DNA of 64,000 nt from Enterococcus silesiacus. Lineage in GTDB: Bacteria > Bacillota > Bacilli > Lactobacillales > Enterococcaceae. The notes beneath the pieces were generated by a model, which worked only from the letters and a program-made list of their open reading frames with translations, searched no databases and was not told where the DNA came from. Each line of letters starts with the position of its first letter. The stretch's first letter is position 1. Location of the stretch: contig CP013614.1 of assembly GCA_001465115.1 (NCBI GenBank), positions 620,001-684,000 of the forward strand. Reading direction: 5' to 3'. Shown here one piece after another: positions 42,738 through 62,983 of the stretch. The position numbers were made by a program, and so were the translations under genes.

Positions 42738-42765
42738 ATAAAAGTTGCTGCGAGGTAACACAGTA

Positions 42766-42908: not shown

Positions 42909-47665
<4,757 letters not shown>

Positions 47666-47761
47666 AAGAAACGAAATAAAAAAGTATTTCGGAATGTTTG
47701 ATTACTACTTCAATCCAGTTTTGAGTGAATAATCACTCAACTAAATAGTTACAACACCCAG

Positions 47762-47877
47762 TGTGGTGGCGATAGCGAGAAGGATACACCTGTTCCCATG
47801 CCGAACACAGAAGTTAAGCTTCTTAGCGCCGATTGTAGTGAAGGGTTTCCCTTTGTGAGAGTAGGACGTCGCCACGC
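47762..47877 (+). rRNA. rrf: 5S ribosomal RNA
   Basis: About 116 bases; ends GTGGTGGC and GTCGCCAC pair, and the CCCATGCCGAACACAGAAGT loop is present. No tRNA genes follow. Confidence 0.95.
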
Positions 47878-48013
47878 TAATCGAACTAAAAAGTAGAATG
47901 TATAATTAAACATTCTTTGATTGTCTTGGAGTTTTTAGAAGAAATTACCTTTTCATCATGAATACTACTGTGGCAGTACGATAAGGAATAAGGTTTGAAC
48001 AATAATTTTTCTT

Positions 48014-48067
48014 AAAAAAACAAGCTTGATTTTGACGTTCTTTGTCAAAATCGAGCTTGTTTTTTTG
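48014..48067 (+). terminator. Terminator of the rRNA operon
   Basis: CAAGCTTGATTTTGAC pairs with GTCAAAATCGAGCTTG, with A7 before and T7 after; very strong. Confidence 0.95.
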
Positions 48068-48106
48068 TCATAGGTTTACCTGTATTTTTTAGCTATAGCC
48101 TTATCG

Positions 48107-49732
48107 ATGTTTCTACTCTTACTTTTTTATTTCGTATTAATGTTACTAATAGCTCTATTAGTAACATTAAGTTTTAATCTAGATTACATAGAGCTAAGAT
48201 TGGATTATAAGCGCTTACTTAATGCATTAAAAGTAGGCAAGGATGGAATCAAAATATTAATATGGTTAGGGAGTGGCTCTGTGTTATTTCAAGATTTAAG
48301 CTGCGTGGCAAATAATACTTTAGAACGAGGAAAAATTACTGGATTTTATGATATGTTGGCACTCGATTGGTTGGGTTTAGTATCGTTGGGAAGAAATTCT
48401 AAAGTAAAAGTAGATGGAACGTTAGATTTTAAAGGAATTGGTGATGAACTGGGGTTAAAATTTATTGAGGAAAAAAAAGCTGACTTACTATTAGAGAATT
48501 CAAACTTCAATGTATTCGAGTATAAGGGGTATTTTTTTGCGAAGTTACATATTCGCAAAACAGAACGTTATGAGGTTTTCTATTTATTTTGTAGGGAAAA
48601 CAATAGTTTTGAAGCAAAAGAATTGAAATGGGCACAGCTTTATATTGAAAAATCATATGATTTAGTGCTGACAAATAACGAATTGATCCAAAGTAATAAT
48701 TATATTTCTAATGTATTTGACAGTACAGATTCGTTGATTTTGGTTTTTGATAGTCAGTTGAATATTGTAACACACAATAAAGCTTTAGGCGATTTAAATA
48801 AATTGTATGAACAACAGGATACGTTATCACTTTCAACAATTAACTTAGAAAATGAAAAAGAATTTGAAGATAGTTTAAATCAGGTATTGAGTAGAGATGA
48901 GAAGGTTTCTCTGGGCTCTGTGAATGTCACGAAAGGAAAGCAAAAGAGGAAGTATTCATTTTCCTTATCGCCGTTTAAAAATAGTAAGGAGCAAGTTGTA
49001 GGTGTTGTTGCAGTAGGATCAGATATAACCAAACTGCAGATGATAAATCATGAACTTGAACAACTAAGTAACTATGGTTTGATGGGTCAAATCGCTTTAG
49101 GACTATCTCATGATGTAAAAAACCCTCTTTCAAATATTCGAAGCTGTGCTCATCTAGTCGGAAAACCTAATATAGAAGCGATTCAAAGAGTTGAATTGGT
49201 TTCCATTATTCAACAAGAAGTCGACCGAATCAATCAAATAATAGAAGAGATGATGTCTTTTAATGTGATTTCTAAAGAGAGTGATTTTAAGTTTTTAGAT
49301 TTGAATAAAATTTTATTGAACTGCAAACATATTATTGAAAGACAAAAATTATTTAAGCAAATAGAAATTAAGGGTGATCTAGAAGAATATCTTCCGCCAT
49401 TTGAAGGGCAAAAAAGTGATATGCAGCAGCTATTTTTAAATATTATGCTAAACGCCATGCAGTCTATTGAAGATCATGGAGTGATAACGATTAAAAGTCG
49501 TTTTCTAAAAGAGCATGATCAAATTGAGATTTCTATTTCTGACACGGGTAAAGGGATGTTAAAAGAAGAACTTGATAATATAGGAACGCCTTATTATACG
49601 ACAAAGCCACGTGGAACTGGGTTAGGATTATATACAGCCAAGCGTATTGCAAGAAAATATGATGCCAAGTTGGATATTCAATCGATCGTAGAAAAAGGAA
49701 CGACCTGTTGTATTTATTTTTCGTGTATTTAA
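48107..49732 (+). CDS. NtrB/AtoS-like sensor histidine kinase
   Basis: Protein of 541 residues: one N-terminal membrane segment (residues 2-22), a region of about 170 residues with no recognised domain, a PAS domain (about 200-310, DSTDSLILVFDSQLNIVTHNKA...DITKL), H-box LSHDVKNPLSNIRS with H335, N-box LFLNIMLNAMQSI, and ATP-binding G1 SDTGKGM and G2 GTGLGLYTAKRIARK. The H-box and the PAS-HisKA layout are those of kinases that pair with sigma-54 activators. The partner is encoded 45 bases downstream. No good ribosome binding site precedes the ATG at 48107 or the ATG at 48140, and no clear promoter is seen after the rRNA terminator, so the start is uncertain. Confidence 0.85.
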   Translation: MFLLLLFYFVLMLLIALLVTLSFNLDYIELRLDYKRLLNALKVGKDGIKILIWLGSGSVLFQDLSCVANNTLERGKITGFYDMLALDWLGLVSLGRNSKVKVDGTLDFKGIGDELGLKFIEEKKADLLLENSNFNVFEYKGYFFAKLHIRKTERYEVFYLFCRENNSFEAKELKWAQLYIEKSYDLVLTNNELIQSNNYISNVFDSTDSLILVFDSQLNIVTHNKALGDLNKLYEQQDTLSLSTINLENEKEFEDSLNQVLSRDEKVSLGSVNVTKGKQKRKYSFSLSPFKNSKEQVVGVVAVGSDITKLQMINHELEQLSNYGLMGQIALGLSHDVKNPLSNIRSCAHLVGKPNIEAIQRVELVSIIQQEVDRINQIIEEMMSFNVISKESDFKFLDLNKILLNCKHIIERQKLFKQIEIKGDLEEYLPPFEGQKSDMQQLFLNIMLNAMQSIEDHGVITIKSRFLKEHDQIEISISDTGKGMLKEELDNIGTPYYTTKPRGTGLGLYTAKRIARKYDAKLDIQSIVEKGTTCCIYFSCI

Positions 49733-49777
49733 GCGTGAACAGGTGGTCGTTGATAGTTAGGGTACAGGAGGAGCAAT

Positions 49778-51121
49778 ATGTACAAAATTCTTGTGGCTGA
49801 TGATGAAAAGGTAGCTCTATTGGTTCTAGAAAGAGAATTATCCGATGCGGGTTACGATGTTTATACAGCAAATGATGGAAAAGCAGCCAGCCAGCTTATC
49901 CAAGATCAACATTTTGACATTGTCATATTGGATGTTTATATGCCATACAAAAATGGTTTTGAATTAGTGAAAGAAATCAAAAAAAAATCAACTAATACAA
50001 TCATTTTATTAGTAACGGCCTATGCGTCGATTGAAAATGCAGTAGATGCGATTAAATTAGGTGCGGAGGATTACCTGGATAAACCATATGATCTTTCTCA
50101 GTTATTACAAAAAATAGCGCAGTTACTTCAGATTCGCTTACAAAAGTCTAAAGATCATAAAATTAAAGTAACTAAAAATAGTAATTTGATTGGTGAAAGT
50201 CCTTTGATGAAAAAAATCCAATCAACGCTAGAAAAAGTTAAGGAGTTAACAACAACCGTTTTGATCACCGGTGAGAGTGGGACGGGAAAAGGGGTAGTTG
50301 CTAGAGAGCTACATTCGTTAGGAAAGTTTAAAGAGCTGCCGTTTATTCATGTTGATTGCGCTTCTTTGTCTCAAAACTTGATTGAAAGTGAACTATTTGG
50401 CTATGAAAAAGGTGCATTTACCGGAGCAAATTCTCTAAAGCAAGGAAAATTTGAAATTGCAAAAAATGGAATCATATTTTTAGATGAGGTCGGGACACTT
50501 CCACTAAATTTGCAATCCAAATTGCTTACAGTATTACAAGATAAACAATTCTATCGCATCGGCGGTGTTGAAAGTATTTCCATGCATGCTCGAGTAATCG
50601 CGGCAACAAATGAAAATATTGAAAAGAATGTTGAAACAGGACTATTTAGAGAAGATCTTTTTTATCGCTTAAATGTGATTAGAATAGAAATTCCTCCGCT
50701 ACGTTTACGAAAAGAGGATATTCCGCACTTGGCAGAAAAATTTATAGAAGAATTTTCCTTGTCGATGAATCACGATGAACTTATCATTGCGCCATATTTT
50801 CTAGAATGTTTACAAAAATATGAATGGCCAGGGAATATTCGAGAATTAGAGAACGCAATCGAAAGCTCGGTTGCGTTATGTGATGGACGAACACTTAAAG
50901 AGACCGATTTGCCAATCAATATTGCAAAAAAAGCGATACAAGCCAGTAATAGCCAAGAAAATTATTTTAAACAATCGATCAAAAATCAAGAAATTATAAC
51001 GATTTTGGAGTCATTAGAGAAGTTTGATGGACATAGAGAAAAAACAGCAAATTATTTAGGTATCACTAGGCGATCCCTTCAATATAAACTTAAAAAATAT
51101 AATCTATTGTCTAAATCGTAA
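49778..51121 (+). CDS. Sigma-54-dependent response regulator (NtrC/AtoC family)
   Basis: Protein of 447 residues with three domains. Receiver (1-120): D8, D9, phosphoacceptor D52, T80-A, K103. AAA+ domain (about 140-375): Walker A GESGTGKG, the sigma-54 contact loop GAFTGA intact, Walker B FLDEVGTL, arginine-finger region FREDLFYRL. C-terminal Fis-type helix-turn-helix (about 405-447, EKTANYLGITRRSLQYKLKKY). It should bind upstream sites and open RpoN promoters when phosphorylated by the neighbouring kinase. Start ATG has ACAGGAGGAG. The only sigma-54 promoter seen in the window is at 53577-53592, upstream of the CoA-transferase gene, making that operon the likely target. Confidence 0.93.
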   Translation: MYKILVADDEKVALLVLERELSDAGYDVYTANDGKAASQLIQDQHFDIVILDVYMPYKNGFELVKEIKKKSTNTIILLVTAYASIENAVDAIKLGAEDYLDKPYDLSQLLQKIAQLLQIRLQKSKDHKIKVTKNSNLIGESPLMKKIQSTLEKVKELTTTVLITGESGTGKGVVARELHSLGKFKELPFIHVDCASLSQNLIESELFGYEKGAFTGANSLKQGKFEIAKNGIIFLDEVGTLPLNLQSKLLTVLQDKQFYRIGGVESISMHARVIAATNENIEKNVETGLFREDLFYRLNVIRIEIPPLRLRKEDIPHLAEKFIEEFSLSMNHDELIIAPYFLECLQKYEWPGNIRELENAIESSVALCDGRTLKETDLPINIAKKAIQASNSQENYFKQSIKNQEIITILESLEKFDGHREKTANYLGITRRSLQYKLKKYNLLSKS

Positions 51122-51156
51122 GAAGGCTCAAAGTGAGTAGCAAAGGATAATTGTAT

Positions 51157-52062
51157 TCATTTCATGATCCCACTATTAAAAAAATCGATGAGTGCGCCAT
51201 GTAAAATGATTTCAGCTGGATTATAAAAACTTTTTAGAGGTCTATAAAGACCAATATCAAAAGAAAGAGACTCTTTGAATTTTTTTTGTAAAAAGTAGTT
51301 TTGCTTAGCAGATTTTTTAGGCATTATAGGCATGATAACGATCTTATTAGAATCTTTAGTCGTTTCTAATAAATACTCCCATGAAGTTGAAGTAAATTGA
51401 ATTTTTGCTTTAGGAAACGCGTGCTTCAGTTTTTTTAGAACAATATGGTAAGATGTTAAACTTTTTTGAAACGTCCCTACAGGGTAACCTTTTAAATCAG
51501 ACCAATCGATTTTATCCAGTTCAGCCAAATCGTGGTGAATACTCATATAAGCAGCGTATTCGCCTAGGCGAATAGAATACTCTTCGAACTGATTTTTATT
51601 AAGAGCTGCAGGCTGTACTAACACAGCGATATCTAGAGCATTGTCTAGTAATAATGCTTTTAATTCATTGGCACTTTGCTCAATGATTTCTATACCTATA
51701 TTCTTATGATGGGAAATAAATTCTGGTAGAAAGGGTATAAAATAGCTTCTGAGTAAGGTAGGCGGAATACCAATACGGACACTGCCAACCAATTTATTCG
51801 CTTCGTTTTTGATGGCTTTGAGCATTTCTTGATGCTTTTGAACGATCTCTAAAGCGTATCTATATAAAACATGACCTGCGGGCGTCAATTCGTTAAGCCG
51901 GCCATTTTTTCTAGTGAATAACAAAATCCCCTCACCATTTTCAAAGTTTGAAACGACTTGGCTTAATGCTGATTGCGTAATATGTACTTTTTCAGCTGCC
52001 AGCGTCAAGTTAAAGTCACATTCTACTATTTTGATGAAGTAGACTAGTTGTGTAATATCCAT
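51157..52062 (-). CDS. LysR family transcriptional regulator
   Basis: Protein of 301 residues: winged helix-turn-helix at the N-terminus (MDITQLVYFIKIVECDFNLTLAAEKVHITQSALSQVV region) and a substrate-binding domain beginning near residue 90 (GSVRIGIPPTLLRSYFIPFLPEFI). The ATG at 52062 is chosen because CGAGGGA precedes it and the helix-turn-helix starts there; an in-frame start 19 codons upstream would only add a non-conserved tail. It follows the FabK-like gene on the minus strand and lies between the two-component genes and the CoA pathway. It may sense a pathway acid or its CoA ester. No terminator was seen between it and the convergent response-regulator gene. Confidence 0.88.
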   Translation of the reverse strand: MDITQLVYFIKIVECDFNLTLAAEKVHITQSALSQVVSNFENGEGILLFTRKNGRLNELTPAGHVLYRYALEIVQKHQEMLKAIKNEANKLVGSVRIGIPPTLLRSYFIPFLPEFISHHKNIGIEIIEQSANELKALLLDNALDIAVLVQPAALNKNQFEEYSIRLGEYAAYMSIHHDLAELDKIDWSDLKGYPVGTFQKSLTSYHIVLKKLKHAFPKAKIQFTSTSWEYLLETTKDSNKIVIMPIMPKKSAKQNYFLQKKFKESLSFDIGLYRPLKSFYNPAEIILHGALIDFFNSGIMK

Positions 52063-52112
52063 AAGTATTCCCTCGTTTTCATTTTTTAGCCAAGATAAGA
52101 CTAATATGTAAA

Positions 52113-52149
52113 TGTGCATACCAGAGAATTAACTTCGCTGATATGCACA
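52113..52149. other. Inverted repeat between the FabK-like and LysR genes
   Basis: TGTGCATA (52113-52120) and TATGCACA (52142-52149), with a further CAG/CTG match inside. Could be an mRNA hairpin that weakens read-through from the FabK-like gene, or a LysR binding site. No T-run follows on the minus strand. Confidence 0.5.
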
Positions 52150-52162
52150 AAACTGATTATTT

Positions 52163-53125
52163 TTATCCGTGGTGGGGTGCGTTTGAAAAGGTAAAATCAA
52201 CAGCAGATAGTTTGTTTTTCAAGTTTTCTGCTTCGTTAAACATTTCTTTAATCATATCAGAAACAGACTCTTCTTTGTTTAACATACCTGAAATTTCTCC
52301 AGCCATAACAGAACCGTTGATAACGTCATCTTCAAAAACGGCTTTTTTTAAGGCACCTTGGCTAATCGAATTCAACTCTTCGTCAGTAGCATTTTGCTTT
52401 TCAAGTTCTGCATATTTTGTAGAGAGAGGATTGGCAATTGTTCTAACTGGGGCACCATGTGAACTTCCAGTAATCAGAGTCGAAGTGTCAGTCGCCTCAA
52501 GTACTAATTGTTTAAACTTTTCACGTACAGGACATTCTTTGGCAAGTAAAAAACGCGTACCAACTTGAACACCAGAAGCACCGAGCGCAAATGCTGCTAA
52601 AACACCTCTGCCGTCACCGATGCCACCAGCTGCAATTACAGGAATTGAGACTGCATCTACGACCTGAGGCCAAAGCGGAAGCGAGCTAAGTGAGCCAATA
52701 TGCCCACCAGCTTCCATTCCTTCCGCTACCACAGCATCTGCACCAAGTGCTTCCATTTTTTTTGCTATTTTTACATTTGGTATAACTGGAATCACTATTA
52801 TACCAGCTGCTTTCCACTTTTCAATAAATTTTTTGGGTGAGCCAGCTCCAGTAGTGACAATTGGAACATTATACTTGATTACAAGTTCGGAGATTGCCTC
52901 AGAATTTTGATCCATAAGCATAATATTTACTGCAAATGGTCTGCTTGTATTTGCTTGGATCAGTTTGATTTCGGCTTCGATTTCAGCAGGTGTTCTACCA
53001 CCAGCAGCTAAGATACCTAATCCACCAGCATTTGAGACAGCAGATATTAGCGGTTCACGGGATATTTGTGCCATTGCGCCTTGGAAAATTGGATAGTCAA
53101 TGCCTAACATTTTTGTTACATTCAT
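52163..53125 (-). CDS. FabK-like FMN enoyl reductase / nitronate monooxygenase family
   Basis: Protein of 320 residues with the FabK/NMO TIM-barrel pattern: start MLGIDYPIFQGAMAQIS, GGLGILAAGG, PFAVNIMLM, VTTGAG, GADAVVAEGMEAGGHIG, IPVIAAGGIGDGRG and GVQVGTRF. It is much closer to FabK (enoyl-ACP reductase II of pneumococcus, including the EGMEAGGHIG block) than to classical nitronate monooxygenases. A stand-alone copy outside any fatty-acid-synthesis cluster, divergent from the CoA-transferase gene, suggests a reductase acting on enoyl-CoA or enoyl acids in this pathway; that is inference. AAAGGAG precedes the ATG by 11 bases. Confidence 0.85.
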   Translation of the reverse strand: MNVTKMLGIDYPIFQGAMAQISREPLISAVSNAGGLGILAAGGRTPAEIEAEIKLIQANTSRPFAVNIMLMDQNSEAISELVIKYNVPIVTTGAGSPKKFIEKWKAAGIIVIPVIPNVKIAKKMEALGADAVVAEGMEAGGHIGSLSSLPLWPQVVDAVSIPVIAAGGIGDGRGVLAAFALGASGVQVGTRFLLAKECPVREKFKQLVLEATDTSTLITGSSHGAPVRTIANPLSTKYAELEKQNATDEELNSISQGALKKAVFEDDVINGSVMAGEISGMLNKEESVSDMIKEMFNEAENLKNKLSAVDFTFSNAPHHG

Positions 53126-53431
53126 AAAATGATCTACTCCTTTGTATTTGTTGTATAAGATAAATGTTCAGATAAGATGAAACCTCATATATAGAAAACA
53201 TACATCGTTGATTGGGGTGTAGCTACTATTCTGTTTTCATTGCCTTTAGTTTATTTTAGGGCTTGAAACACACGTTCATTATAAATTCCCCTTTCTTTGT
53301 GTACGTGAACAGAAGCTTAATAAGCAAACGATCTATCTTATAGTTATTTATTAAGCAATTTAGATACCAATTTATTCAAGCTAGAGCTAGGAGCGCTTTT
53401 TTAAGCGTTTTATACAAATTTGATCGAGTTA

Positions 53432-53461
53432 TTGTGAAAAAATGTGAATATTCTTTCACAA
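53432..53461. promoter_or_regulatory. Candidate enhancer dyad 1 for the sigma-54 activator
   Basis: Perfect arms TTGTGAAA (53432-53439) and TTTCACAA (53454-53461), 14 bases apart, about 115-145 bases upstream of the -24/-12 promoter, a usual distance for NtrC-type enhancer sites. Binding protein inferred only. Confidence 0.5.
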
Positions 53462-53474
53462 CAAAAAAGCTACC

Positions 53475-53493
53475 TTGTACTAAAAATGTACAA
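53475..53493. promoter_or_regulatory. Candidate enhancer dyad 2
   Basis: Arms TTGTAC (53475-53480) and GTACAA (53488-53493), 7 bases apart, about 85-100 bases upstream of the sigma-54 promoter. Confidence 0.4.
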
Positions 53494-53576
53494 AAATAAA
53501 ACAAAACAGTTTATAAATCCAGCTAGAAATCATACAGGAAGGCGGAAGAGGTCAATTTTTGCTTATTTGTAATAAT

Positions 53577-53592
53577 TGGCATGGCTTTTGCT
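53577..53592 (+). promoter_or_regulatory. Sigma-54 (RpoN) -24/-12 promoter of the CoA operon
   Basis: TGGCATGGCTTTTGCT matches the consensus TGGCACG-N4-TTGCT with one difference (C to T) and exact spacing: GG at 53578-53579 and GC at 53590-53591. Transcription should start near 53603, 27 bases before the CoA-transferase ATG. Confidence 0.85.
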
Positions 53593-53629
53593 TTTATTGT
53601 TTTGAAACTAAAAAAGAAAGGATTTGAAA

Positions 53630-54847
53630 ATGATGGAGAGAAAACTTCCTCTAGAAGGAATCAAAGTTGTTGAATTAGGTACTCACGTAGCTGTTCCAAA
53701 TGCTACTCGATTCATGGCAGATTGGGGAGCAGAGGTGATTAAGGTAGAAGGGGTACGTGGAGAAGAATGGCGTGTCATTGGAAATTCTTACTATACACCT
53801 GTTGCGGATGATGAGAATCCCATTTTTACTGTTCAAAATGCGAATAAAGAATTTATCGCAATTGATTTAAAAAATCCAGATGGAATGGAAATAATGAAAA
53901 AACTAATTCGTGAAGCAGATATATTTATCAGTAATGTTCGCTTAAATTCATTGAAGAAAATGAAGTTAGATTATGAGGCGGTCAAACCATTAAATCCGCA
54001 AATTATTTATTGTCATTTTACTGGCTTTGGGTATGAAGGACCAGATAGAAATCGACCAGGATTCGATATGGCTGCTTATTGGGCAAGATCTGGTGCTATG
54101 AGTGATTGGGTCAGTAAAGGGGACTATCCAATCAAACCGCCAGGTGGTTTCGGAGATGCTACTGTTAGTGCGAATATCTGCTCTGGAATCTTAGCTGCAT
54201 TGTATGCAAGAACCCAGTCAGGTAAAGGAACCTTTTTAACTAGTTCATTATATTCAAGTGCAATTTGGTACAATTCAACCGGAATTGTTTCTACGCAGGA
54301 GAAATATGGAAACGTTTACCCTAAAGATAAAAATCAACCAGTAAATCCTTTTTCTCATATTTATAAATGCAAGGATGAAGAATACGTGATTATTACCGTT
54401 CTTGATTACAATAACAGCTGGGAGAAAATGGTTACGATGCTTGGCTTTAGTGAGTATCTTAATGATGAGCGCTTTAATACGATTCTGGCGGTTCGGGAAA
54501 ATATGGATGAATTCATTAAAATTATCAATCATGCCTTCTTGAAAAAAGATCGTGAAGAGTGGTGTCAATTGTTTGATCAAGCGGATATCGTTTACGAAAA
54601 ATTAGCTCATATGAGTGAGGTTACTAAAGATCCTCAAGCTTGGGAAAATAATTTCTTAACAGAAGTTACCTTTCCAAATAATAATACAGCAATTTTACCA
54701 ACGGTACCAATTCAGTTTTCAGAATATGAGGTAACTAAGTACATTCCTTCTGGAAAAGTTGGAAGAGACTCACTAGAAATTTTACAAAAATTAGGCTATT
54801 CAGAAGCAGAATTTGCTGAATTGGTAGAGAAAAAAGCCATCAAATAA
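53630..54847 (+). CDS. Type III CoA-transferase (CaiB/BaiF family; FldA/HadA-like)
   Basis: Protein of 405 residues. Family blocks: LEGIKVVELGTHVAVPNATRF, DWGAEVIKVEG, the FTVQNANKEFIAIDLKNPDG segment, and GFGYEGPDRNRPGFD with the catalytic Asp at about residue 146, which forms an anhydride with the acid during transfer. The DWGAEVIKVEGVRGEEWR and FDMAAYWARSGAMSD wording resembles clostridial FldA/HadA enzymes that charge aryl-lactates, cinnamates or 2-hydroxyisocaproate; this hint is from memory. It should be the pathway entry, moving CoA from an acyl-CoA to the imported acid. The ATG at 53630 follows AGAAAGGA; the next codon is also ATG. First gene after the sigma-54 promoter. Confidence 0.9.
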   Translation: MMERKLPLEGIKVVELGTHVAVPNATRFMADWGAEVIKVEGVRGEEWRVIGNSYYTPVADDENPIFTVQNANKEFIAIDLKNPDGMEIMKKLIREADIFISNVRLNSLKKMKLDYEAVKPLNPQIIYCHFTGFGYEGPDRNRPGFDMAAYWARSGAMSDWVSKGDYPIKPPGGFGDATVSANICSGILAALYARTQSGKGTFLTSSLYSSAIWYNSTGIVSTQEKYGNVYPKDKNQPVNPFSHIYKCKDEEYVIITVLDYNNSWEKMVTMLGFSEYLNDERFNTILAVRENMDEFIKIINHAFLKKDREEWCQLFDQADIVYEKLAHMSEVTKDPQAWENNFLTEVTFPNNNTAILPTVPIQFSEYEVTKYIPSGKVGRDSLEILQKLGYSEAEFAELVEKKAIK

Positions 54848-54892
54848 GCAAGATGGAACCGTTTAAGATTCTATTGAAAAAGGAGAGTAAAT

Positions 54893-55672
54893 ATGCCAAC
54901 ATTTGATCATTTTATATGCGAAGTCACAGGTGCAACAGCAGTGTTGACAATTAATCGTCCAGAAGTTCGAAATGCTTTAAATCAAGCATGTTGGAAGGAA
55001 ATATTAGAGTTTGTAACTTGGGTCGATCAAGAAGCAAGCGTCAAAACAGTCATTATTACAGGAGCGGGTGAGAAAGCTTTTGTTGCTGGAGCTGATTTAA
55101 AGTCAGTCTCAGAGCTAAATAGTGTTTCTGCAGTAAATTCAAACTCAATGAGTGCGTTAAAAGCAATTACCAATAGCTCCAAAGTATTTATTGCAGCGGT
55201 CAATGGTTATGCATTTGGTGGAGGCTGTGAATTAAGTTTAGCATGTGATTTACGCCTTGCCTCTGAAAATGCTCGCTTTGGTTTACCGGAAACGGGTTTG
55301 GGGTTGATTCCAGGCGCGGGTGGCACACAGCGACTTCCAAGAATCGTCGGAATCGGTGTGGCCAATGAAATGATTCTTGGAGGGCGCATTTTAACTGGGG
55401 AACAGGCAGTCAATTATGGTTTAGCAATGAAATGTGTTCCCTTGGGCCAACTGCTAAAAGAGGCCAATGAGCTAGCAGATACGATTAATAAAAAAGCTCC
55501 CTTGGCTATCAGCTATGCAAAAAAATGTGTGCGGCAGGCTTTATCAATCGACGAAAACAGTGGGCTTGCACTTGAAAACCAATCGTTTGCTATTTTAATG
55601 TCTAGTGAAGATAAAAAAGAAGGAATTGCAGCATTCTTTGAGAAGCGTCAAGCAGATTTTAAAAATAAATAA
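54893..55672 (+). CDS. Enoyl-CoA hydratase (crotonase family)
   Basis: Protein of 259 residues. Oxyanion-hole segments AFVAGADLK (62-70) and NGYAFGGGCEL (104-114); both catalytic glutamates are present, E113 (GGGCELSL) and E133 (LPETGLGLIPGAGGTQR). It should add water to a trans-2-enoyl-CoA to give the 3-hydroxyacyl-CoA. It is second in the operon, 45 bases after the CoA-transferase, with AAAGGAG before the ATG. Chain length and side group of the substrate are not visible from sequence. Confidence 0.92.
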   Translation: MPTFDHFICEVTGATAVLTINRPEVRNALNQACWKEILEFVTWVDQEASVKTVIITGAGEKAFVAGADLKSVSELNSVSAVNSNSMSALKAITNSSKVFIAAVNGYAFGGGCELSLACDLRLASENARFGLPETGLGLIPGAGGTQRLPRIVGIGVANEMILGGRILTGEQAVNYGLAMKCVPLGQLLKEANELADTINKKAPLAISYAKKCVRQALSIDENSGLALENQSFAILMSSEDKKEGIAAFFEKRQADFKNK

Positions 55673-55717
55673 TCAGCTACTTAAGCTCTTTCAGCTGTTA
55701 AAACAGGAGGAATGTAT

Positions 55718-56503
55718 ATGTATGAAACGATTATCTATGAAGTGAAAAATAACGTAGCAACAATTACAATCAATCGTCCAGATGTTAGTAATGCTTTTTC
55801 GCTCAAAACGTATTCAGAGGTCAAAATAGCCTTAGAGCTTTCAGGAAAAGATGCAGAGGTTCGTGCAGTCGTGATTACAGGAAGCGGAAAAAATTTTTCA
55901 GCAGGTGGAGATGTCAATCGCTTTAAGACGTTAATTGAAACAGAAGAATTTTTACCGCCAGAAGGAGTGATTGCAGCCGGTGCGATGACTCGAGCTGTAA
56001 AATTGTGTCCAAAGCCTGTTGTTGCCAAAATCAATGGAGTGGCAGCAGGTGCCGGTTGTTCATTAGCGTTAGCTTGTGATTTTAGAGTGATGGATGAAAA
56101 AAGTAAATTGGCGATGGCCTTTATTAATATGGGTTTTAGCGGTGATACAGGTGGGATTTATTTTTTGAATCGAATGGTAGGAACAGCAAAAACCACTGAA
56201 ATGTTAGTACTTGCAGAACCAGTCAAAGCCCAAGAAGCACATGCTTTGGGGTTGACCACTAAACTTGGAAAAGAAGGCGAGCTTGATACAACAACAACTG
56301 AATTAATTGAAAAGTTACTGCAAAAACCGACACAGGCGATCGCTAAACAAAAAGCCTTGAATTACGAATTTTTCTTCTCTGATTTAGAACAGTTCAACGA
56401 AAGAGAAGCGCAATATATGGTGGAATGTGGCAAAACAAAAGACCACCAAGAAGCGGTTTATGCTTTTTTAGAAAAGAGAAAACCGAATTTTACTGGAAAA
56501 TAA
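55718..56503 (+). CDS. Enoyl-CoA isomerase-like crotonase (PaaG-like, lacks hydratase glutamates)
   Basis: Protein of 261 residues with crotonase fold segments NFSAGGDVNRF and NGVAAGAGCSLALACD. The first hydratase Glu is replaced by Ser115, the second by Phe136, while an Asp (D143, in MGFSGDTGG) sits where isomerases of the PaaG type have their catalytic Asp. It is therefore more likely to move a double bond (delta3 to delta2, or a related shift) than to hydrate. The ATG at 55718 is seven bases after AGGAGG; the ATG at 55712 is too close. It lies between the hydratase and the dehydrogenase, as expected for a pathway that must bring an unsaturated acid into the 2-enoyl form. Confidence 0.85.
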   Translation: MYETIIYEVKNNVATITINRPDVSNAFSLKTYSEVKIALELSGKDAEVRAVVITGSGKNFSAGGDVNRFKTLIETEEFLPPEGVIAAGAMTRAVKLCPKPVVAKINGVAAGAGCSLALACDFRVMDEKSKLAMAFINMGFSGDTGGIYFLNRMVGTAKTTEMLVLAEPVKAQEAHALGLTTKLGKEGELDTTTTELIEKLLQKPTQAIAKQKALNYEFFFSDLEQFNEREAQYMVECGKTKDHQEAVYAFLEKRKPNFTGK

Positions 56504-56525
56504 TAAATAATATGGAGGAAGTAAA

Positions 56526-57395
56526 ATGAAAATCAATGATCTGAAAAAAGTAGCTGTCATCGGTGGTGGCTTGATGGGGCGTCAAATCGCCTTAAATACA
56601 GCAATATATGGTGTTGATACCTATGTTGCTGATGCAAACCCAGAGATTTTACCCGTTATCAAGGAATGGGAGGAAACCTATTTAGAAGGTCGAATCAACA
56701 AAGGAAAATTAACTGCAGAACAAGTAGCAACAACAAAACAACATTTTCATATTGCAAATTCAATCGAGGAAGCAGTAACCGATGCAGATTTAGTTATTGA
56801 AGCAATTATCGAAAATAAAGAAATCAAGCAAGAATTTTTTACTAATTTAAACAAACTTGTTAGAAAAGATACCATCATTGCAACCAATTCCAGCTTTTTA
56901 TATTCCTCTATGTTTGAAGACTGTGTTGATAATCCTACCCGATTAGCTAATTTACATTTCTTTAACCCTGCGTTAGTCATGAAGCTGACAGAAGTTGTGC
57001 AAGGACCTCAGACAAGTGATGAAACAGTACAATTTCTCCTCGATTTTTCCAGGAAAACAGGGAAAGATCCAGTTTGGGTTAAAAAGGAAATAGAAGGCTT
57101 TATCGCTAATCGTATCCTACGGGCAGTCGCTAATGAAGCACTTTATTTAGTAGAAGAAGGAGTCGCAACGCCAGAAGAAATCGATATTGCAGCAGAAAAA
57201 GGCTTGAATTATCCGATGGGACCTTTCAAATTAATGGATTTGACAGGTGTCGATCTAAGCTATTTCAATTTAAAACGAGTGTACGATGAAACGGGAGAAA
57301 AGCGAGCGGGCTTTGATCTTCTTAAAAAGAAATATGAAGCAAATGAATGGGGCAGAAAGACTGGCAAAGGCTGGTATGAGTATCCTAAAAAATAA
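56526..57395 (+). CDS. 3-hydroxyacyl-CoA dehydrogenase (3-hydroxybutyryl-CoA dehydrogenase family)
   Basis: Protein of 289 residues: NAD-binding GGGLMG (13-18) with acidic residue after the second strand (ADAN), the ATNSSFL segment, catalytic His in NLHFFNPALVMKLTEVV paired with Glu, and the C-terminal helical domain (EGFIANRILRAVANEALYLVEEGVATPEEIDIA). Stand-alone short form, not fused to a hydratase. It oxidises the 3-hydroxyacyl-CoA to the 3-oxoacyl-CoA. ATG follows ATGGAGGAAG; the gene starts 22 bases after the isomerase. Confidence 0.93.
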   Translation: MKINDLKKVAVIGGGLMGRQIALNTAIYGVDTYVADANPEILPVIKEWEETYLEGRINKGKLTAEQVATTKQHFHIANSIEEAVTDADLVIEAIIENKEIKQEFFTNLNKLVRKDTIIATNSSFLYSSMFEDCVDNPTRLANLHFFNPALVMKLTEVVQGPQTSDETVQFLLDFSRKTGKDPVWVKKEIEGFIANRILRAVANEALYLVEEGVATPEEIDIAAEKGLNYPMGPFKLMDLTGVDLSYFNLKRVYDETGEKRAGFDLLKKKYEANEWGRKTGKGWYEYPKK

Positions 57396-57426
57396 TCACA
57401 GGGCAAAATGACGAAGGAGATATCTT

Positions 57427-58599
57427 ATGAGTAAAAATGTTAGAGATGTAGTAATCGTGGCATATGGAAGAAGCGCTATTAGCAAAACTGGGAAAAAAGG
57501 AGCGCTCAGAGAGGCGAATCCAGTTGATTTTGCTGGTGAAGTATTAAAGGGTGTTTTGGCAAAAATACCTGAGTTAGAAACCGAAGCGATTGATGATTTG
57601 ATTGTGGGTTGCGCTAAACCAGAATATGTTCAAGGGTACAATGTTGCTCGTATCATCGGCCTAAGAGCTGGTTTACCGTGGAGTGTTGCTGGGCAAACGG
57701 TAAATCGTTTTTGTTCCTCCGGACTGCAAACAATTTCTATTGGTGCCAATGCAATTGCTGTTGGTCAAGCGGAAGTAATCGTTGCAGGAGGGGTAGAATC
57801 AATGTCTGCTATTCCGATGGGGAGTGATCCAAAAACATGGAATCCATGGGTCGCAGAACATGAAAAAGGTGCCTATATGCCAATGGGACTTACTGCTGAA
57901 AACGTAGCAGAAAAATATAATATTTCAAGAGAAGCGATGGATGCCTTTGCGGTTGAAAGTCACTTAAAAGCTACTGTTGCACAAGAATCAGGTGTTTTCA
58001 ATAAGGAAATTATACCAGTTTCTGGAATCGATGAAGCAGGTCAGCCAATCATTTTTGATCAAGATCAAGGCATACGCAAAAATAGCAGTATGGAAAGTCT
58101 TGGAAAATTACCCACTGTGTTTAAAGAAGATGGCAAAGTTACCGCAGGAACTGCTTCACAAACAAGCAATGGTGCGTCCTTTGTCGTATTGATGACTAGA
58201 GAAAAAGCTGGAAATCTTGGCATCAAACCGATCGCTGTTTTTAAAGGATTTTCTGTAGCAGGTGTTGATCCATCATTGATGGGGATCGGACCTATTTATG
58301 CGGTACCTAGAGTTTTGAAACAAACTGGTTTAACTGTTGACGAAATGGATGTTATCGAATTGAATGAAGCTTTTGCAGCACAAGCATTGCCTTGTATAAA
58401 AGAATTGAATTTTGATAAGGAAAAAGTAAATCCAAATGGTGGAGCCATAGCTTTAGGCCATCCGTTAGGTGCAACGGGCAGTATTCTTGTCAGTAAAGCG
58501 TTGAATCAATTGGAAAGAATACAGGGCAAATACGGTTTGGTAACAATGTGTATTGGCGGCGGTATGGGTGCTGCAGCAGTATTGGAAATGTGTGACTAA
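57427..58599 (+). CDS. Acetyl-CoA C-acyltransferase (thiolase, FadA/PaaJ-like)
   Basis: Protein of 390 residues with all thiolase active-site parts: nucleophile C96 in NRFCSSGLQT, HAF-like ELNEAFAAQ (Asn-Glu-Ala), GGAIALGHPLGATG with the catalytic His, and the second Cys in CIGGGMGAA. It cleaves a 3-oxoacyl-CoA with CoA to give acetyl-CoA and a shortened acyl-CoA. It is the degradative 3-ketoacyl type rather than AtoB, judged from the CSSG motif and NRF wording, but this is not certain. A hairpin terminator after it divides enzyme genes from transporter genes. Confidence 0.92.
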   Translation: MSKNVRDVVIVAYGRSAISKTGKKGALREANPVDFAGEVLKGVLAKIPELETEAIDDLIVGCAKPEYVQGYNVARIIGLRAGLPWSVAGQTVNRFCSSGLQTISIGANAIAVGQAEVIVAGGVESMSAIPMGSDPKTWNPWVAEHEKGAYMPMGLTAENVAEKYNISREAMDAFAVESHLKATVAQESGVFNKEIIPVSGIDEAGQPIIFDQDQGIRKNSSMESLGKLPTVFKEDGKVTAGTASQTSNGASFVVLMTREKAGNLGIKPIAVFKGFSVAGVDPSLMGIGPIYAVPRVLKQTGLTVDEMDVIELNEAFAAQALPCIKELNFDKEKVNPNGGAIALGHPLGATGSILVSKALNQLERIQGKYGLVTMCIGGGMGAAAVLEMCD

Positions 58600-58622
58600 A
58601 TCAGTATAAAGACACTGATTTT

Positions 58623-58668
58623 GGATCTGGAATAAAACGAGAAAGAAGTGAGATTCCAGATCCTTTTT
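58623..58668 (+). terminator. Terminator or attenuator inside the CoA operon
   Basis: GGATCTGGAAT (58623-58633) pairs with ATTCCAGATCC (58653-58663), then TTTTT. Good intrinsic terminator form; the transporter genes downstream may get less transcript. Confidence 0.8.
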
Positions 58669-58699
58669 GCTAAATAATAATAAAGGAGAAGTTTGAAGA

Positions 58700-60109
58700 A
58701 TGTTTGATAAAAAGACAATAAAGAAAATTATTTTTGAACTTATTTCGATTATCGCAGCGCTAATTATTGCTAATCTTCCGATTCCAGATGGTTTGGATAA
58801 AAATGGGATGCTGGCTTTGGCGATTTTGATCTGGGCTGTTTTAAATTGGATTTTGAATACGATGAATGATTTTATTGTCGTGATGATCATGTGCTGTGCT
58901 TTTGTGATCTTTAAAGTCGTACCCTTTGAAATTGCTTTTAGTGCTTTTTCTGGAACAACTTATTGGTTGTTACTGGGAGCGTTAGGTTTAGGGTGCGGTA
59001 TTGTGAAAAGCGGATTGATCACTCGACTATCTTTATACTGCATGAAAATAATGCCGCCAACCTTTTTTGGTCAAACCTTGGCGATGTTTATCTCAAGTAT
59101 TTTTGTTGGTCCATTGATTCCTTCTACATCAGCGAAAGTTGCAATACTAGCCCCAATGACGATTTCAATTGGTGAAAAGCTAGGGTATGAAAAAAAGTCT
59201 AAAGGGATGTTTGGAATCTGGAGTGCCATGTATTTTGCTTTCAATCAAATGGCGCCATTTTTTATCAGTAGTTCATTTTTAGGCTATGTCACACTAAGTT
59301 TTTTGCCAAAAGAAATCAGTGCAGAGTTTACGTATCCAAAATGGATTATTTCCATGCTTGTATGGGGAATTGTAATGTATGTACTTGGGTTTGTCGCAAT
59401 CAATCTGTTATATAAACCAAAGGAATCACAAAAACTTGATAAAACGGATATTGCAATGATGCTAAAAGAAATGGGGCCAATCAATAAACAAGAAAAATCT
59501 GTGTTAGCTGTTATTTTAGTTTGTTTAGTTTTCTGGATGTTGGAAAGAACACTTGGAATCAGTGCGTCAGTCACATCAGTCATGGGATTTTCGGTCCTTT
59601 TAGCAACGGGAATCGTAACGCCTCAAGATTTTAATACGAAGATCAATTGGTCTTTTTTAACATTCGTAGGTGGGGCAGTTAGCTTGGCTTCTGTGCTTAG
59701 TAAGGTAGGCGTAGATAAATGGATTGGCAGCATTCTTGAACCGATCATGAGTGGTGTAACCTCAAACAAGTTGTTGTTTATCATGACGATTGCAGTGATC
59801 ACTATTTTGACAAGAATCGTTATTGCAAGCGTTACTGCAACAATGACGTTGTTGAATATTATTGTGATTCCATTGTGTCTTGCAGCTGGGATCAATCCTT
59901 GGATTGGCTCGATTGTAATTTACACGTTTTGCCATCAATTTTTCTTTAAATATCAAAGTCCAACAACTGTTGGTGCATTTGCTGCGGCAAATGGTGATGA
60001 CACGATTGGCTGGAATTATGTAAGTAAGTTTAACTTTGTCGTTCTAGGGGTTGAAATGATCGCTATTTTGGCCAGTATTCCATTTTGGCATTTGCTGGGT
60101 CTAATGTAA
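58700..60109 (+). CDS. DASS (SLC13)-family organic anion transporter
   Basis: Protein of 469 residues with about 12 membrane segments and the internal repeat of the DASS/CitT family (GTTYWLLLGALGLGCGIVKSGL; FLTFVGGAVSLASVLSKVG). The Ser-Asn-Thr motifs that bind sodium and the carboxylate in typical members are altered to PSTSAK and ASVTAT. It probably imports a mono- or dicarboxylate, or exchanges it for a product. AAGGAG precedes the ATG. It follows the thiolase behind a terminator, and a second carrier of another family follows it, so import and exchange or two substrates are both possible. Confidence 0.85.
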   Translation: MFDKKTIKKIIFELISIIAALIIANLPIPDGLDKNGMLALAILIWAVLNWILNTMNDFIVVMIMCCAFVIFKVVPFEIAFSAFSGTTYWLLLGALGLGCGIVKSGLITRLSLYCMKIMPPTFFGQTLAMFISSIFVGPLIPSTSAKVAILAPMTISIGEKLGYEKKSKGMFGIWSAMYFAFNQMAPFFISSSFLGYVTLSFLPKEISAEFTYPKWIISMLVWGIVMYVLGFVAINLLYKPKESQKLDKTDIAMMLKEMGPINKQEKSVLAVILVCLVFWMLERTLGISASVTSVMGFSVLLATGIVTPQDFNTKINWSFLTFVGGAVSLASVLSKVGVDKWIGSILEPIMSGVTSNKLLFIMTIAVITILTRIVIASVTATMTLLNIIVIPLCLAAGINPWIGSIVIYTFCHQFFFKYQSPTTVGAFAAANGDDTIGWNYVSKFNFVVLGVEMIAILASIPFWHLLGLM

Positions 60110-60139
60110 AAGCAAACAATTTAAGTTGGAGGAAGTGAA

Positions 60140-61468
60140 ATGAGTGTTGAATTAATCAGTTTGGCTGGAATTCTGCTGGGGGTTTGTACGTTGATATTTT
60201 TAGCCTTTCGAGGCTATCCGATTTTTGTAATAGGAAGTGTAGCTTCCGTGATTGTATTGCTTTTTTCTGGTATGAATGTGCTAGATGCATTATTGGGGAC
60301 TTACATGGATTCTTTCTCAGAGTATATTAGTAATTATTTTTTCATTTTTCTACTGAGCTCGATTTTTGGCAGAATGATGGGGAAAACAGGAGCTGCTCAA
60401 TCGATCGCATATAAAACCTCACGTTTAATTAGGAAAAAAAGCAATGAAAAGAACCATAAATTTCTTGTCGTGATGTCTTTGGTCATCATCAATATGGTTT
60501 TAACTTTAGGTGGTGTCAGTCTTTTTGTTGTTGTTTTTACAGTTGTCGAAATTGCGAAAGAGTTATTCGAGGAGTTTGATGTTCCTTGGAAGATGTATAC
60601 TTGCGGTGTGTTAGGATCATCTTCTTTTACAAGTACGATGGTACCTGGAAATCCTGCGATCATTAATATAATTCCGACGAATTATTTAGGTACAAATACA
60701 ATGGCAGCGCCCCTTTTAGGAATGATTTGTGCTGTAGTTACATTCCTGTTAGGTTCACTATACATTCTGTTGGAAACGAAGAAAAACACTAAAAATCAGG
60801 AAGGATTCTATCCTACTGGTCAAAAAATAAAAGAAGCGGCACTTGAAAAAGTTACATTTGCTGAACAGCCTTTAGTAAAGTGTTTGATCCCATCGATTGT
60901 GTTGATTCTTGTGTTGAATGTCTTTAGTGCTTCTGCTGTAATAGCGTTGACGGCTGCTTGCTTCGTTAAGATTGTATTGTTTTATAAAGAGTTGTTTCCG
61001 AATTTAGCTGAAGTATTTAAAATGGGTGGAGAGAATGCTATGTCCGCAATTGTTTCTATTTGTGCGGCGGTAGGATTTGGTAGTGTGGTTGCTTCTGTAC
61101 CAGGGTATCAGCTAGTCATTAATAGTCTAGATAGTATTCCAGGACCCGCAATTTTACAATTAGTACTATCGTTTAATGTGATTTCAGCTGTAACTGGTTC
61201 ATCCAGTGGCGGAGCATCGATCGCGTTTTCAACGTTAGGGGATCATTTTACGGACTTAGGATTATCTCCGCAAGTGATTCATCGTGTAGGTGTCATGTCT
61301 TCAAATGGCTTGGATTCTTTACCGCACAGCGGGGCCATCTTTAACACATTAAACATAACTAGATTGACACATAAACAAGCGTATAAGAATTATTTTATGT
61401 TAACAGTTGTATTAGAGACAGGGATGTCATTATTTGCTGGAATTTTAACGCTCTTCGGAATTGTATAG
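60140..61468 (+). CDS. GntP-family permease
   Basis: Protein of 442 residues with about 12 membrane segments. GntP features: start LAFRGYPIFVIGSVASVIVLLFSG, VMSLVIINMVLTLGGVSLFVVVFTVVEIAKELFEEFDVPW, and the SSSGGASIAFSTLGDHF and SNGLDSLPHSGAI blocks. Family members carry gluconate and related hydroxy acids; in several bacteria GntP-like permeases lie with short-chain CoA-transferase genes and carry 3-hydroxybutyrate or acetoacetate. That makes a hydroxy acid a plausible substrate here. ATG is preceded by TTGGAGGAAG, 30 bases after the DASS gene. Confidence 0.88.
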   Translation: MSVELISLAGILLGVCTLIFLAFRGYPIFVIGSVASVIVLLFSGMNVLDALLGTYMDSFSEYISNYFFIFLLSSIFGRMMGKTGAAQSIAYKTSRLIRKKSNEKNHKFLVVMSLVIINMVLTLGGVSLFVVVFTVVEIAKELFEEFDVPWKMYTCGVLGSSSFTSTMVPGNPAIINIIPTNYLGTNTMAAPLLGMICAVVTFLLGSLYILLETKKNTKNQEGFYPTGQKIKEAALEKVTFAEQPLVKCLIPSIVLILVLNVFSASAVIALTAACFVKIVLFYKELFPNLAEVFKMGGENAMSAIVSICAAVGFGSVVASVPGYQLVINSLDSIPGPAILQLVLSFNVISAVTGSSSGGASIAFSTLGDHFTDLGLSPQVIHRVGVMSSNGLDSLPHSGAIFNTLNITRLTHKQAYKNYFMLTVVLETGMSLFAGILTLFGIV

Positions 61469-61487
61469 TAGGTTGGGGTGAGCTATT

Positions 61488-62246
61488 TTGACGTGTGTAA
61501 ATAAAACTAAAATGAATAGTGAAGCAGCATTTGAGTCAATTTCGATCGATGCATTTACTGCTAGACTGGATCATTTAGTTGAAACAACAAATGATAAGAA
61601 AGTCAAGATTATTTCCGTAAATGGAAGCGTTGCGGCTGGAAAAACAACCTTCACAGAGCAGTTAAAAGCCTATTTTTTAGAGAAACACAAATCAGTACAG
61701 GTTATTCATACAGATAGTTTTCTACTTTCAAATAAAGAGCTGGCTGAAAGAAATTTGATGGATAAAAAGGGATTTCCAGTAACGTATCAACAAGCAAAAA
61801 TAAGAAGTGTCTTAAAGCAAATAGCAATGGGGGATGTCCCAATTATTGTTCCTCAATATTCTCATGCTGCATATAATATAGTGGAAGAGTATCAGTTTAT
61901 TGAAGCGGCAGATATTTATATCATTGAAGGAATTGGGTTTAAATCAAAAGAGTATTCAAACTGGATCGATTTATCATTATTTTTAGATGCTAAAATTGAA
62001 AATATAGGAAAATGGTACCGTCGTCGTTTCATCAAAAATATTTCATTAGCAAAACCCGATTCAATTTTGAAAAAATATGAAAAATATCCCGAAAATAGGC
62101 TTAAAAAGGTCATGGATCATAATTGGAATGAAGTCAATTTGATCAACTATTATGAAAATATTTTACCAGAAAAAAGCCAAAGTGATATTATTTTGGAAAA
62201 AAATGAAGTTCATAAAATCGTAAATATTTATTCTAGAAAACGATAG
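61488..62246 (+). CDS. Pantothenate kinase-like P-loop kinase (CoaA family)
   Basis: Protein of 252 residues with P-loop GSVAAGKTT (46-54), the THTDSFLLSNKELAERNLMDKKGFPVTY-type block that is close to the CoaA TTDGFL...GLMKKKGFPESYD region, VPQYSHAAYNIV (compare VYSHLIYD of CoaA) and IIEGIG. It is shorter than CoaA of E. coli (316) at both ends. It should phosphorylate pantothenate or a related alcohol. Placed last in the operon, it may raise CoA supply during growth on the acid. The start is a TTG with GGGGTGAG upstream. A terminator shared with padR follows. Confidence 0.8.
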   Translation: MTCVNKTKMNSEAAFESISIDAFTARLDHLVETTNDKKVKIISVNGSVAAGKTTFTEQLKAYFLEKHKSVQVIHTDSFLLSNKELAERNLMDKKGFPVTYQQAKIRSVLKQIAMGDVPIIVPQYSHAAYNIVEEYQFIEAADIYIIEGIGFKSKEYSNWIDLSLFLDAKIENIGKWYRRRFIKNISLAKPDSILKKYEKYPENRLKKVMDHNWNEVNLINYYENILPEKSQSDIILEKNEVHKIVNIYSRKR

Positions 62247-62253
62247 TTTACAA

Positions 62254-62306
62254 CACAAAACTAAGAGGATGATATGGAATTTTCCATCCTCTTAGTTTTG
62301 TTTCTA
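62254..62306. terminator. Bidirectional terminator closing the CoA operon
   Basis: CAAAACTAAGAGGATG (62255-62270) pairs with CATCCTCTTAGTTTTG (62285-62300): a 16-bp perfect stem, with T-rich tail. Confidence 0.92.
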
Positions 62307-62840
62307 TTTACTTGAAAATAACTGTTCAACTTGTTCTTCAGCCCATTGACACCAGCGCAGTTCTTCTTCACATATACGTATTTTTCTTTGGATAACAAGA
62401 AATCGTCCAAAGTTTTTTTGTTGTTCTTCTGGATCTGATAATTGATCAATTTGAGCTTGTTTAGTTTGATTTTGTTTCAATAGTTTTAATTGATGCTGTT
62501 TTCTTTCGAAAAGTAGTCCCTTTACAGTATCTTTATCTAGAATCGATGCAACATAAATCTTTGCAAGAAATTCATCTTTTTGTGAAGGTTCTTTCGTTTC
62601 TTCTTGAATCCAAGTATTGACGATATTTTCGCCCTTTTTAGTTAAATGATAGATTTTTTTCTGTGAATGTTTTTCGTCATTTTCAACTGAAACATATTCT
62701 TCTTTTAACAGTTTCCCTAAGGAAGTGTAGATCTGACTATGATGAGCTTCCCAAAAAAGCGCAAGATATTGCTTCAGCTCATAGCCAGTACAGGGTTTTC
62801 TAACTAACATACAAAGCAAAATATAACTAAGAGTATTCAT
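62304..62840 (-). CDS. PadR family transcriptional regulator
   Basis: Protein of 178 residues: N-terminal winged helix of the PadR type (LSYILLCMLVRKPCTGYELKQYL and HHSQIYTSLGKLLKEEYVS), then a C-terminal helical dimerisation domain (about 95-178) as in two-domain PadR/VirR-like proteins. PadR proteins repress genes for phenolic acid decarboxylase or drug pumps and are released by a small ligand. ATG is preceded by AGAAGGAG. It is divergent from the MFS gene, and a textbook PadR dyad lies between them. Confidence 0.9.
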   Translation of the reverse strand: MNTLSYILLCMLVRKPCTGYELKQYLALFWEAHHSQIYTSLGKLLKEEYVSVENDEKHSQKKIYHLTKKGENIVNTWIQEETKEPSQKDEFLAKIYVASILDKDTVKGLLFERKQHQLKLLKQNQTKQAQIDQLSDPEEQQKNFGRFLVIQRKIRICEEELRWCQWAEEQVEQLFSSK

Positions 62841-62911
62841 CCCGACGATTCTCCTTCTCTTTTTGAATCCGCTTATTTTTTATTATATCATAAAATAAAT
62901 GAAAATATTAT

Positions 62912-62959: not shown

Positions 62960-62983
62960 TTTATACAGAGAGAAGGTAATAAA

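Follow-up and report, generated by a model that had tools for sequence, protein, structure and literature searches.

We analyzed a 64-kb stretch of the Enterococcus silesiacus genome (bases 620001-684000 of a single-contig, 3.93-Mb assembly; GenBank contig CP013614.1), hereafter the window, which contains twelve genes for a putative organic acid/coenzyme A (CoA) degradation module. Its core is an eight-gene run on the plus strand, from a class III CoA-transferase through a short pantothenate kinase (PanK)-like protein, accompanied by genes for a sensor histidine kinase, a sigma-54-type response regulator, a LysR-family regulator, and a FabK-like flavoprotein (Table 1). The intergenic gaps within the run measure 19 to 45 bp, with one exception of 100 bp between the thiolase and DASS carrier genes. 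This gap holds a perfect 11-bp hairpin followed by five T residues (z = -4.7), which may reduce expression of the carriers relative to the enzymes upstream; the hairpin after the last gene is strong (z = -6.95). For the CoA-transferase, an ATG start at 53630 is likelier than a TTG at 53624. An earlier note on this DNA had listed the same twelve genes, and all twelve proved to be open frames at the place and on the strand given there, with their families backed by Pfam and NCBIfam. The note called the system self-contained. This is true of its enzymes and carriers and of the sensor, activator, and promoter, whereas the gene for sigma-54 itself, rpoN, lies outside the window (C1:53079).

Table 1. 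Features of the module and its immediate surroundings (positions within the window)
Feature	Position	Strand	Remarks
16S-23S-5S rRNA operon	42909..47877	+	Context; directly upstream of the module
Intrinsic terminator-like hairpin	48017..48063	+	Between rRNA operon and kinase gene
Sensor histidine kinase	48107..49732	+	PAS, HisKA, HATPase; best curated model AtoS, below cutoff
Response regulator	49778..51121	+	Sigma-54 activator ATPase (GAFTGA), Fis-type helix-turn-helix; best curated model AtoC, below cutoff
LysR-family regulator	51157..52062	-	Open frame extends to 52119; family models fit start at 52062
FabK-like/nitronate monooxygenase-family flavoprotein	52163..53125	-	Gln at motif I position; proposed enoyl-CoA reductase
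Palindrome TTGTGAAA-N14-TTTCACAA	53432..53461	+	Candidate upstream activator site
-24/-12 sigma-54 promoter TGGCAT-GGCTT-TTGCT	53577..53592	+	Exact pattern match
Class III CoA-transferase	53630..54847	+	CoA_transf_3; family Asp at 176
Enoyl-CoA hydratase	54893..55672	+	Both catalytic positions occupied by Glu (E113, E133)
PaaG-like crotonase, isomerase-like	55712..56503	+	Neither Glu kept, Asp143 present; start possibly at 55718
3-Hydroxyacyl-CoA dehydrogenase	56526..57395	+	3HCDH
Thiolase, acyltransferase/FadA side	57427..58599	+	Cys and His motifs present
11-bp hairpin and five T	58623..58668	+	Longest gap of operon; possible partial terminator
DASS-family carrier	58700..60109	+	Best PDB matches are plant dicarboxylate translocators
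GntP-type carrier	60140..61468	+	Ion-transporter fold (predicted structure)
Short type I pantothenate kinase-like protein	61488..62246	+	Extra to full-length CoaA elsewhere in genome
17-bp hairpin, terminator-like	62255..62301	+	After last gene

The sequence elements expected of a sigma-54-dependent operon are present: a -24/-12 promoter pattern before the first gene, an activator with a GAFTGA-bearing ATPase, and rpoN in the genome. The exact -24/-12 site ends 38 bp before the likely CoA-transferase ATG, and the adjacent response regulator matches Sigma54_activat (E = 1.4e-64, Pfam), with GAFTGA at residue 212. By itself the site is weak evidence, since 23 of 100 shuffled windows also hold one (one found in the window, 0.25 expected). 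Genome-wide, there are 15 matches to the strict pattern and 3 to a reversed control pattern. The activator ATPase family (PF00158) has nine genomic matches over the Pfam cutoff, five of them above 120 bits, and an exact -24/-12 site lies 425 to 2,888 bp from each of these five; none of 20,000 random placements of the 15 sites brought all five activators within 7.5 kb of a site. In a domain scan, the window protein was the only one of the five strong matches with a receiver domain. Three others (L123, L124, and L125) carry PRD and EIIA-man domains and are of the LevR type. The fifth (L126) spans 285 residues and retains part of the ATPase domain; its frame overlaps another that encodes an EIIA-man domain, and the gene looks broken. 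The four weak matches fall in three Clp-type ATPase frames, two of them sharing one frame.

Upstream of the promoter, the palindrome TTGTGAAA-N14-TTTCACAA has perfect 8-bp arms, and its edge lies 116 bp before the -24 box, inside the 80 to 150 bp given as usual in PMC8262876. It occurs once in the window, where 0.01 would be expected; that value is optimistic because the palindrome was noticed first and tested afterwards. Taken together, the exact promoter, an activator that alone of the five strong ones is a response regulator, and the candidate enhancer palindrome leave sigma-54 control by the neighboring two-component pair well supported at the level of sequence, and this regulatory half of the finding is stronger than earlier claimed. 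On the opposite strand, 53354-53369 resembles a promoter but departs from the pattern at two positions; such matches are not far above chance (24 compared with 15.6 expected). Of the exact sites near the other strong activators, one lies 2.1 kb from L126 (C1:1869511-1869918), and another is 425 bp from a LevR-type (PRD/EIIA-man) activator at C1:686245-686754, which adjoins the module 2.2 kb beyond the end of the window.

The enzyme set fits a β-oxidation route, started by CoA transfer, for a short (di)carboxylic acid that is unsaturated or carries a 3-hydroxy group. Pfam assigns the operon's CoA-transferase to CoA_transf_3 and to no other family (E = 1.1e-86), and Asp176, which we take to be the catalytic Asp of the class III family, is invariant in 30/30 aligned sequences. 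The hydratase keeps both Glu residues and is closest to short-chain-enoyl-CoA hydratase, with no equivalog cutoff reached. At the corresponding positions the second crotonase has S115 and F138, and its D143 aligns by eye with an Asp of chain 6slb, which we take to be PaaG; we assume that a Glu pair serves hydratases and that an Asp replaces it in PaaG-type isomerases. Against the curated PaaG model this protein scored 178.6 bits, below the cutoff of 345.15. The thiolase reaches the cutoff of the broad NCBIfam model TIGR01930 and scored higher with FadA (310 bits) than with β-ketoadipyl-CoA thiolase (262 bits). Queries for acyl-CoA dehydrogenase (Acd) and electron transfer flavoprotein (Etf) found no match in the window, the rest of the genome not having been searched.

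Of the two organic acid carriers proposed earlier, the DASS protein scored above the cutoff of one curated profile (Pfam PF00939, 157.3 bits with a cutoff of 27) and below that of another (TIGR00785, 152.6 bits with a cutoff of 198.6). The second carrier has no significant Pfam match of its own, and its GntP-type assignment comes from its relatives and fold: 16 of the 31 members of its alignment match GntP_permease, and its predicted structure is an ion-transporter fold. GntP-type carriers also occur near related CoA-transferases (L105/L121, 42%; weakly in L118), as does a DASS carrier (L117, 32%). The last gene product scored 168.4 of 235 bits against the curated type I PanK model and keeps the P-loop and the other aligned motifs. 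A third PanK-like match in the genome (C1:3545539-3545997) is weak, at 33.7 bits with two in-frame TGA codons.

The flavoprotein was harder to assign. It belongs to the Pfam nitronate monooxygenase (NMO) family (E = 3.7e-73) and scored 389.9 bits against the FabK model, below the cutoff of 453.1 (host FabK, 522 bits). Among structures, it was nearest to three FabK entries (291 to 302 bits), followed by other enoyl-ACP reductases (220 to 236 bits) and nitronate monooxygenase (at most 153 bits). According to PMC13311796, two positions after the motif I Met, 2-NMOs have Gly and FabK has Trp. The host FabK has the Trp and the window flavoprotein a Gln, as do 119 of 136 sequences with the window protein included, 120 of the 136 being its nearest database relatives. 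The protein appears to be a FabK relative for which neither FabK nor NMO activity can be assumed, because its motif I residue matches neither. In a tree made by a quick method, five metagenome proteins are its nearest neighbors, and the copies of the G413 type join next (supports of 95 and 98 by the Shimodaira-Hasegawa-like approximate likelihood ratio test). A recent duplication of the host FabK was considered and rejected, as the two share 52% identity (54% in a second comparison) and lie on separate branches.

One of the closest known systems is AtoSC-atoDAEB of Escherichia coli, in which AtoDA is a class I CoA-transferase and which lacks the two crotonases and the dehydrogenase. The module shares with it a PAS kinase and a GAFTGA response regulator, a sigma-54 promoter, a CoA-transferase, a thiolase, and an organic acid carrier, all together. 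However, its CoA-transferase is of class III, its carriers are of the DASS and GntP types, and it adds a hydratase, an isomerase, a dehydrogenase, the FabK-like protein, a LysR regulator, and a PanK. The kinase scored 205.5 of 646 bits for AtoS and the response regulator 429.1 of 714 bits for AtoC, both below the curated cutoffs. The earlier note had called the module a functional counterpart of the ato regulon built from different enzyme and carrier families. The difference in families is borne out; the likeness extends to layout but not to membership, because the regulators fall below the ato cutoffs and the CoA-transferase is of another class. On its gene content we would describe it as a broader β-oxidation module, for which ato is a fair analogy. 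The lower phenylacetate pathway, PaaFGHJ, likewise consists of hydratase, isomerase, dehydrogenase, and thiolase, and the module has all four, its second crotonase being PaaG-like; however, no PaaF, PaaG, or PaaH cutoff was reached, and the module thiolase is nearer FadA than β-ketoadipyl-CoA thiolase. Enterococcal LevR-type RpoN systems share the sigma factor and promoter type but have PRD/EIIA activators beside phosphotransferase system (PTS) genes and no response regulator.

We next compared the neighbors of related CoA-transferases at 99 loci, counting distinct copies of at least 250 bits and neighbors within 5 kb; the gene in the overlapping loci L105 and L121 was counted once, and L006 and short loci repeating a place were left out. 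Of 27 copies, 15 had Acd/Etf only, 4 a flavoprotein only, 2 both, and 6 neither, with 10 of the 15 coming from one Lactobacillales family (L093 and L155-L163). The idea that flavoprotein and Acd/Etf are strict alternatives was dropped in view of the copies with both or neither. The closest parallel is L094 in genome G413, where a LysR regulator, CoA-transferase, FabK-like protein (57% identity to the window protein), and PanK-like kinase (32%) form one run. It differs in having a MaoC-type hydratase and the S component of an energy-coupling factor transporter, and dehydrogenase, thiolase, and sigma-54 activator were unmatched in its 19.9 kb. The group comprising L003, L091, L119, and L155-L163 combines a related class III CoA-transferase (and, in L003, a crotonase) with Acd and EtfAB, often with an AMP ligase, and had no 3-hydroxyacyl-CoA dehydrogenase or thiolase match within 5 kb. 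In Clostridium transplantifaecale (L008), a sigma-54 activator, two CoA-transferases, a 3-hydroxyacyl-CoA dehydrogenase (48%), a thiolase (40%), and a hydratase (42%) lie within 21 kb, so sigma-54 and CoA-transferase genes also meet elsewhere. That activator has the ATPase and Fis helix-turn-helix, with no receiver domain found, and some further genes of the locus presumably encode 2-hydroxyacyl-CoA dehydratase. G413 also carries two near-identical FabK-like genes (L168 and L174), one adjoining the CoA-transferase, and on a 592-kb plasmid record of Aerococcus tenax (L090) a gene annotated as nitronate monooxygenase directly follows the CoA-transferase.

Within the genus, the CoA-transferase was found in 1 of 22 genomes, that of E. 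silesiacus itself. At the family level it occurred in 4/105 genomes at E = 0.001, the three others at 27 to 33% identity; at the order level in 4/395 at E = 1e-60 and at the phylum level in 5/398 at E = 1e-80, its own genome included in each; and in the family of G413 in 11/397 at E = 1e-60, all at 34 to 36% identity. A protein database search, made among the 8,000 candidates sharing most words, listed nearest CoA-transferase relatives at 89, 75, and 68% identity (P0002-P0005 span 59 to 89%) and one in Streptococcus suis at 57%. The second carrier (95, 89, and 80%) and the flavoprotein (95 and 85%) also have close database relatives, so modules closely related to this one are likely in genomes beyond those covered here. 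No near-identical DNA was found among plasmid records, and the kinase and dehydrogenase had no plasmid match of at least 60%. Whole-operon synteny was not found in named genomes among at least 80 loci reached through two short patterns (best, 49%; most, about 30%), which is weak evidence. The G+C fraction per kilobase ranges from 0.29 to 0.41 over 48000-62999, similar to the 0.34 to 0.39 of the four adjoining non-rRNA kilobases (40000-42999 and 63000-63999), and composition thus gives no clear sign of foreign origin. Given its presence in a single genome of the genus, the module is sporadic and probably acquired, a distribution typical of genes that are mobile or frequently lost. It is in keeping, as are our literature searches as far as they go, with the earlier remark that lactic acid bacteria have seldom been reported to carry such systems.

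We favor the view, with a probability of about 0.62, that the module is a horizontally acquired, sigma-54-switched catabolic island through which a small (di)carboxylic acid, unsaturated or 3-hydroxylated, is imported and split to acetyl-CoA. The PAS kinase would sense the acid or a state that the acid causes, and the phosphorylated response regulator would bind upstream of 53577, perhaps at the palindrome, to drive sigma-54 transcription of one eight-gene operon (53630-62246). The two carriers would import the hydrophilic acid, and the CoA-transferase would activate it at no cost in ATP, the CoA being donated by a CoA-ester that the pathway itself generates. The PaaG-like isomerase could then move a 3-double bond to position 2, after which the hydratase would add water, the dehydrogenase would oxidize the product with formation of NADH, and the thiolase would release acetyl-CoA, from which ATP might be gained through phosphotransacetylase and acetate kinase. 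The LysR/FabK-like pair would form a divergent accessory unit, and the short PanK may boost CoA supply. Small hydrophilic unsaturated or 3-hydroxy acids would be the best-supported substrate class, ahead of saturated or aromatic ones, because of the carrier families and the lack of an acyl-CoA dehydrogenase in the window.

Several points weigh against this view. The thiolase is the one protein with a listed NCBIfam match above cutoff, and the model concerned is broad; the -24/-12 pattern alone would turn up in 23 of 100 shuffled windows; and the substrates of enzymes, carriers, and sensor are all predicted. It is distribution alone that argues for acquisition: no mobile element was identified, and a blind search of 0.8 Mb of the genus relative G010 for an empty insertion site found no syntenic flank. 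What the sequence shows directly is the gene content, the promoter sequence, the hairpin closing the operon, the active-site residues, and the rarity of the module; its acquisition, signal, substrate, direction, and energy balance are our inferences. A C6 dicarboxylate would suit the carrier and the PaaF/G/H-like genes, but the thiolase is nearer FadA and the hydratase nearest the short-chain type. A C6 dicarboxylate pathway leading to succinyl-CoA, with succinate exchanged through the DASS carrier, is disfavored by the thiolase ranking and is retained as no more than a candidate.

A sharper form of the same proposal, compatible with it and best treated as tentative, is that the acid is dismutated. 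Half would be oxidized to acetyl-CoA and half reduced to the saturated acid, with the CoA-transferase swapping CoA and the flavoprotein acting as an NADH-dependent enoyl-CoA reductase in place of Acd/Etf, so that redox is balanced; crotonate would yield acetate and butyrate. Such a role is possible because a FabK has been assayed with crotonyl-CoA and NADH (PMC11091888). The unmatched Acd/Etf queries in the window agree with it, as do the FabK-family flavoproteins near related CoA-transferases in Lactobacillales (57% in G413, 40% in G184, and 45% on the A. tenax plasmid), the grouping of the window protein with the metagenome and G413-type copies (support, 98) rather than with the host FabK, and the 15/27 related copies with only Acd/Etf nearby. 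P0246 (flavoprotein, 58%) and P0017 (CoA-transferase, 57%) are probably on one 23,739-base contig. However, the motif I Gln departs from both the FabK Trp and the NMO Gly, and G413 has only two matches, the near-identical copies, one of them at a distance from the CoA-transferase, so that proteins of this type may there function in fatty acid synthesis. Nor are the CoA-transferase-linked flavoproteins one subfamily, since those of G184 and A. tenax have Gly and those of Pseudoflavonifractor share 32 to 33% identity, and the copies with a flavoprotein only (4/27), both (2), or neither (6) do not behave as strict alternatives. The full combination, in which a lactic acid bacterium ferments an unsaturated acid by CoA-transferase dismutation, with a FabK-derived flavoenzyme closing redox and a two-component sigma-54 switch set among PRD activators, is rather doubtful.

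The Gly of the G184 and A. tenax copies, together with the Pfam NMO assignment, would instead suit a nitronate monooxygenase-like detoxifier in an operon handling a reactive acid such as 3-nitropropionate; alternatively, the flavoprotein might be unrelated and share only the intergenic region. We consider this improbable, given the Gln at the diagnostic position and the structural scores, which place the protein nearer FabK than nitronate monooxygenase. Equally unlikely in our estimation is a biosynthetic direction, with a short-chain acid made from acetyl-CoA as an electron sink and the carriers exporting it. Butyrate synthesis draws on the enzyme types thiolase, dehydrogenase, hydratase, and reductase, the last possibly represented here, and the hydratase is closest to the short-chain kind, but the thiolase ranks acyltransferase/FadA types ahead of biosynthetic ones, the isomerase and two carriers would be superfluous, and an AtoSC-like pair would better suit the inducible consumption of an acid from outside the cell.

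Sugars, citrate, and some amino acids are regarded as the usual substrates of enterococci, and to our knowledge such acid degradation is not expected of lactic acid bacteria. If the catabolic proposal is true, a β-oxidation operon with its own promoter and a response-regulator activator would give the genus a further carbon source and means of making ATP, and would extend its sigma-54 network by a new branch. The module would also allow a clear-cut test of a catabolic role for FabK-like flavoproteins. According to PMC8262876, the published sigma-54 activators of E. faecalis serve PTS operons, with four activators beside sugar PTS genes and a disrupted fifth; MptR is called LevR-like, and the main text of that paper contains neither "two-component" nor "response regulator."

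Elsewhere in the window, a gene for a PadR-type regulator (62304-62840) faces the end of the operon, and the gene beyond it, by eye a major facilitator superfamily transporter, runs out of the window. Two MacB/FtsX-type permease genes lie at 2057-3280 and 19841-23275.

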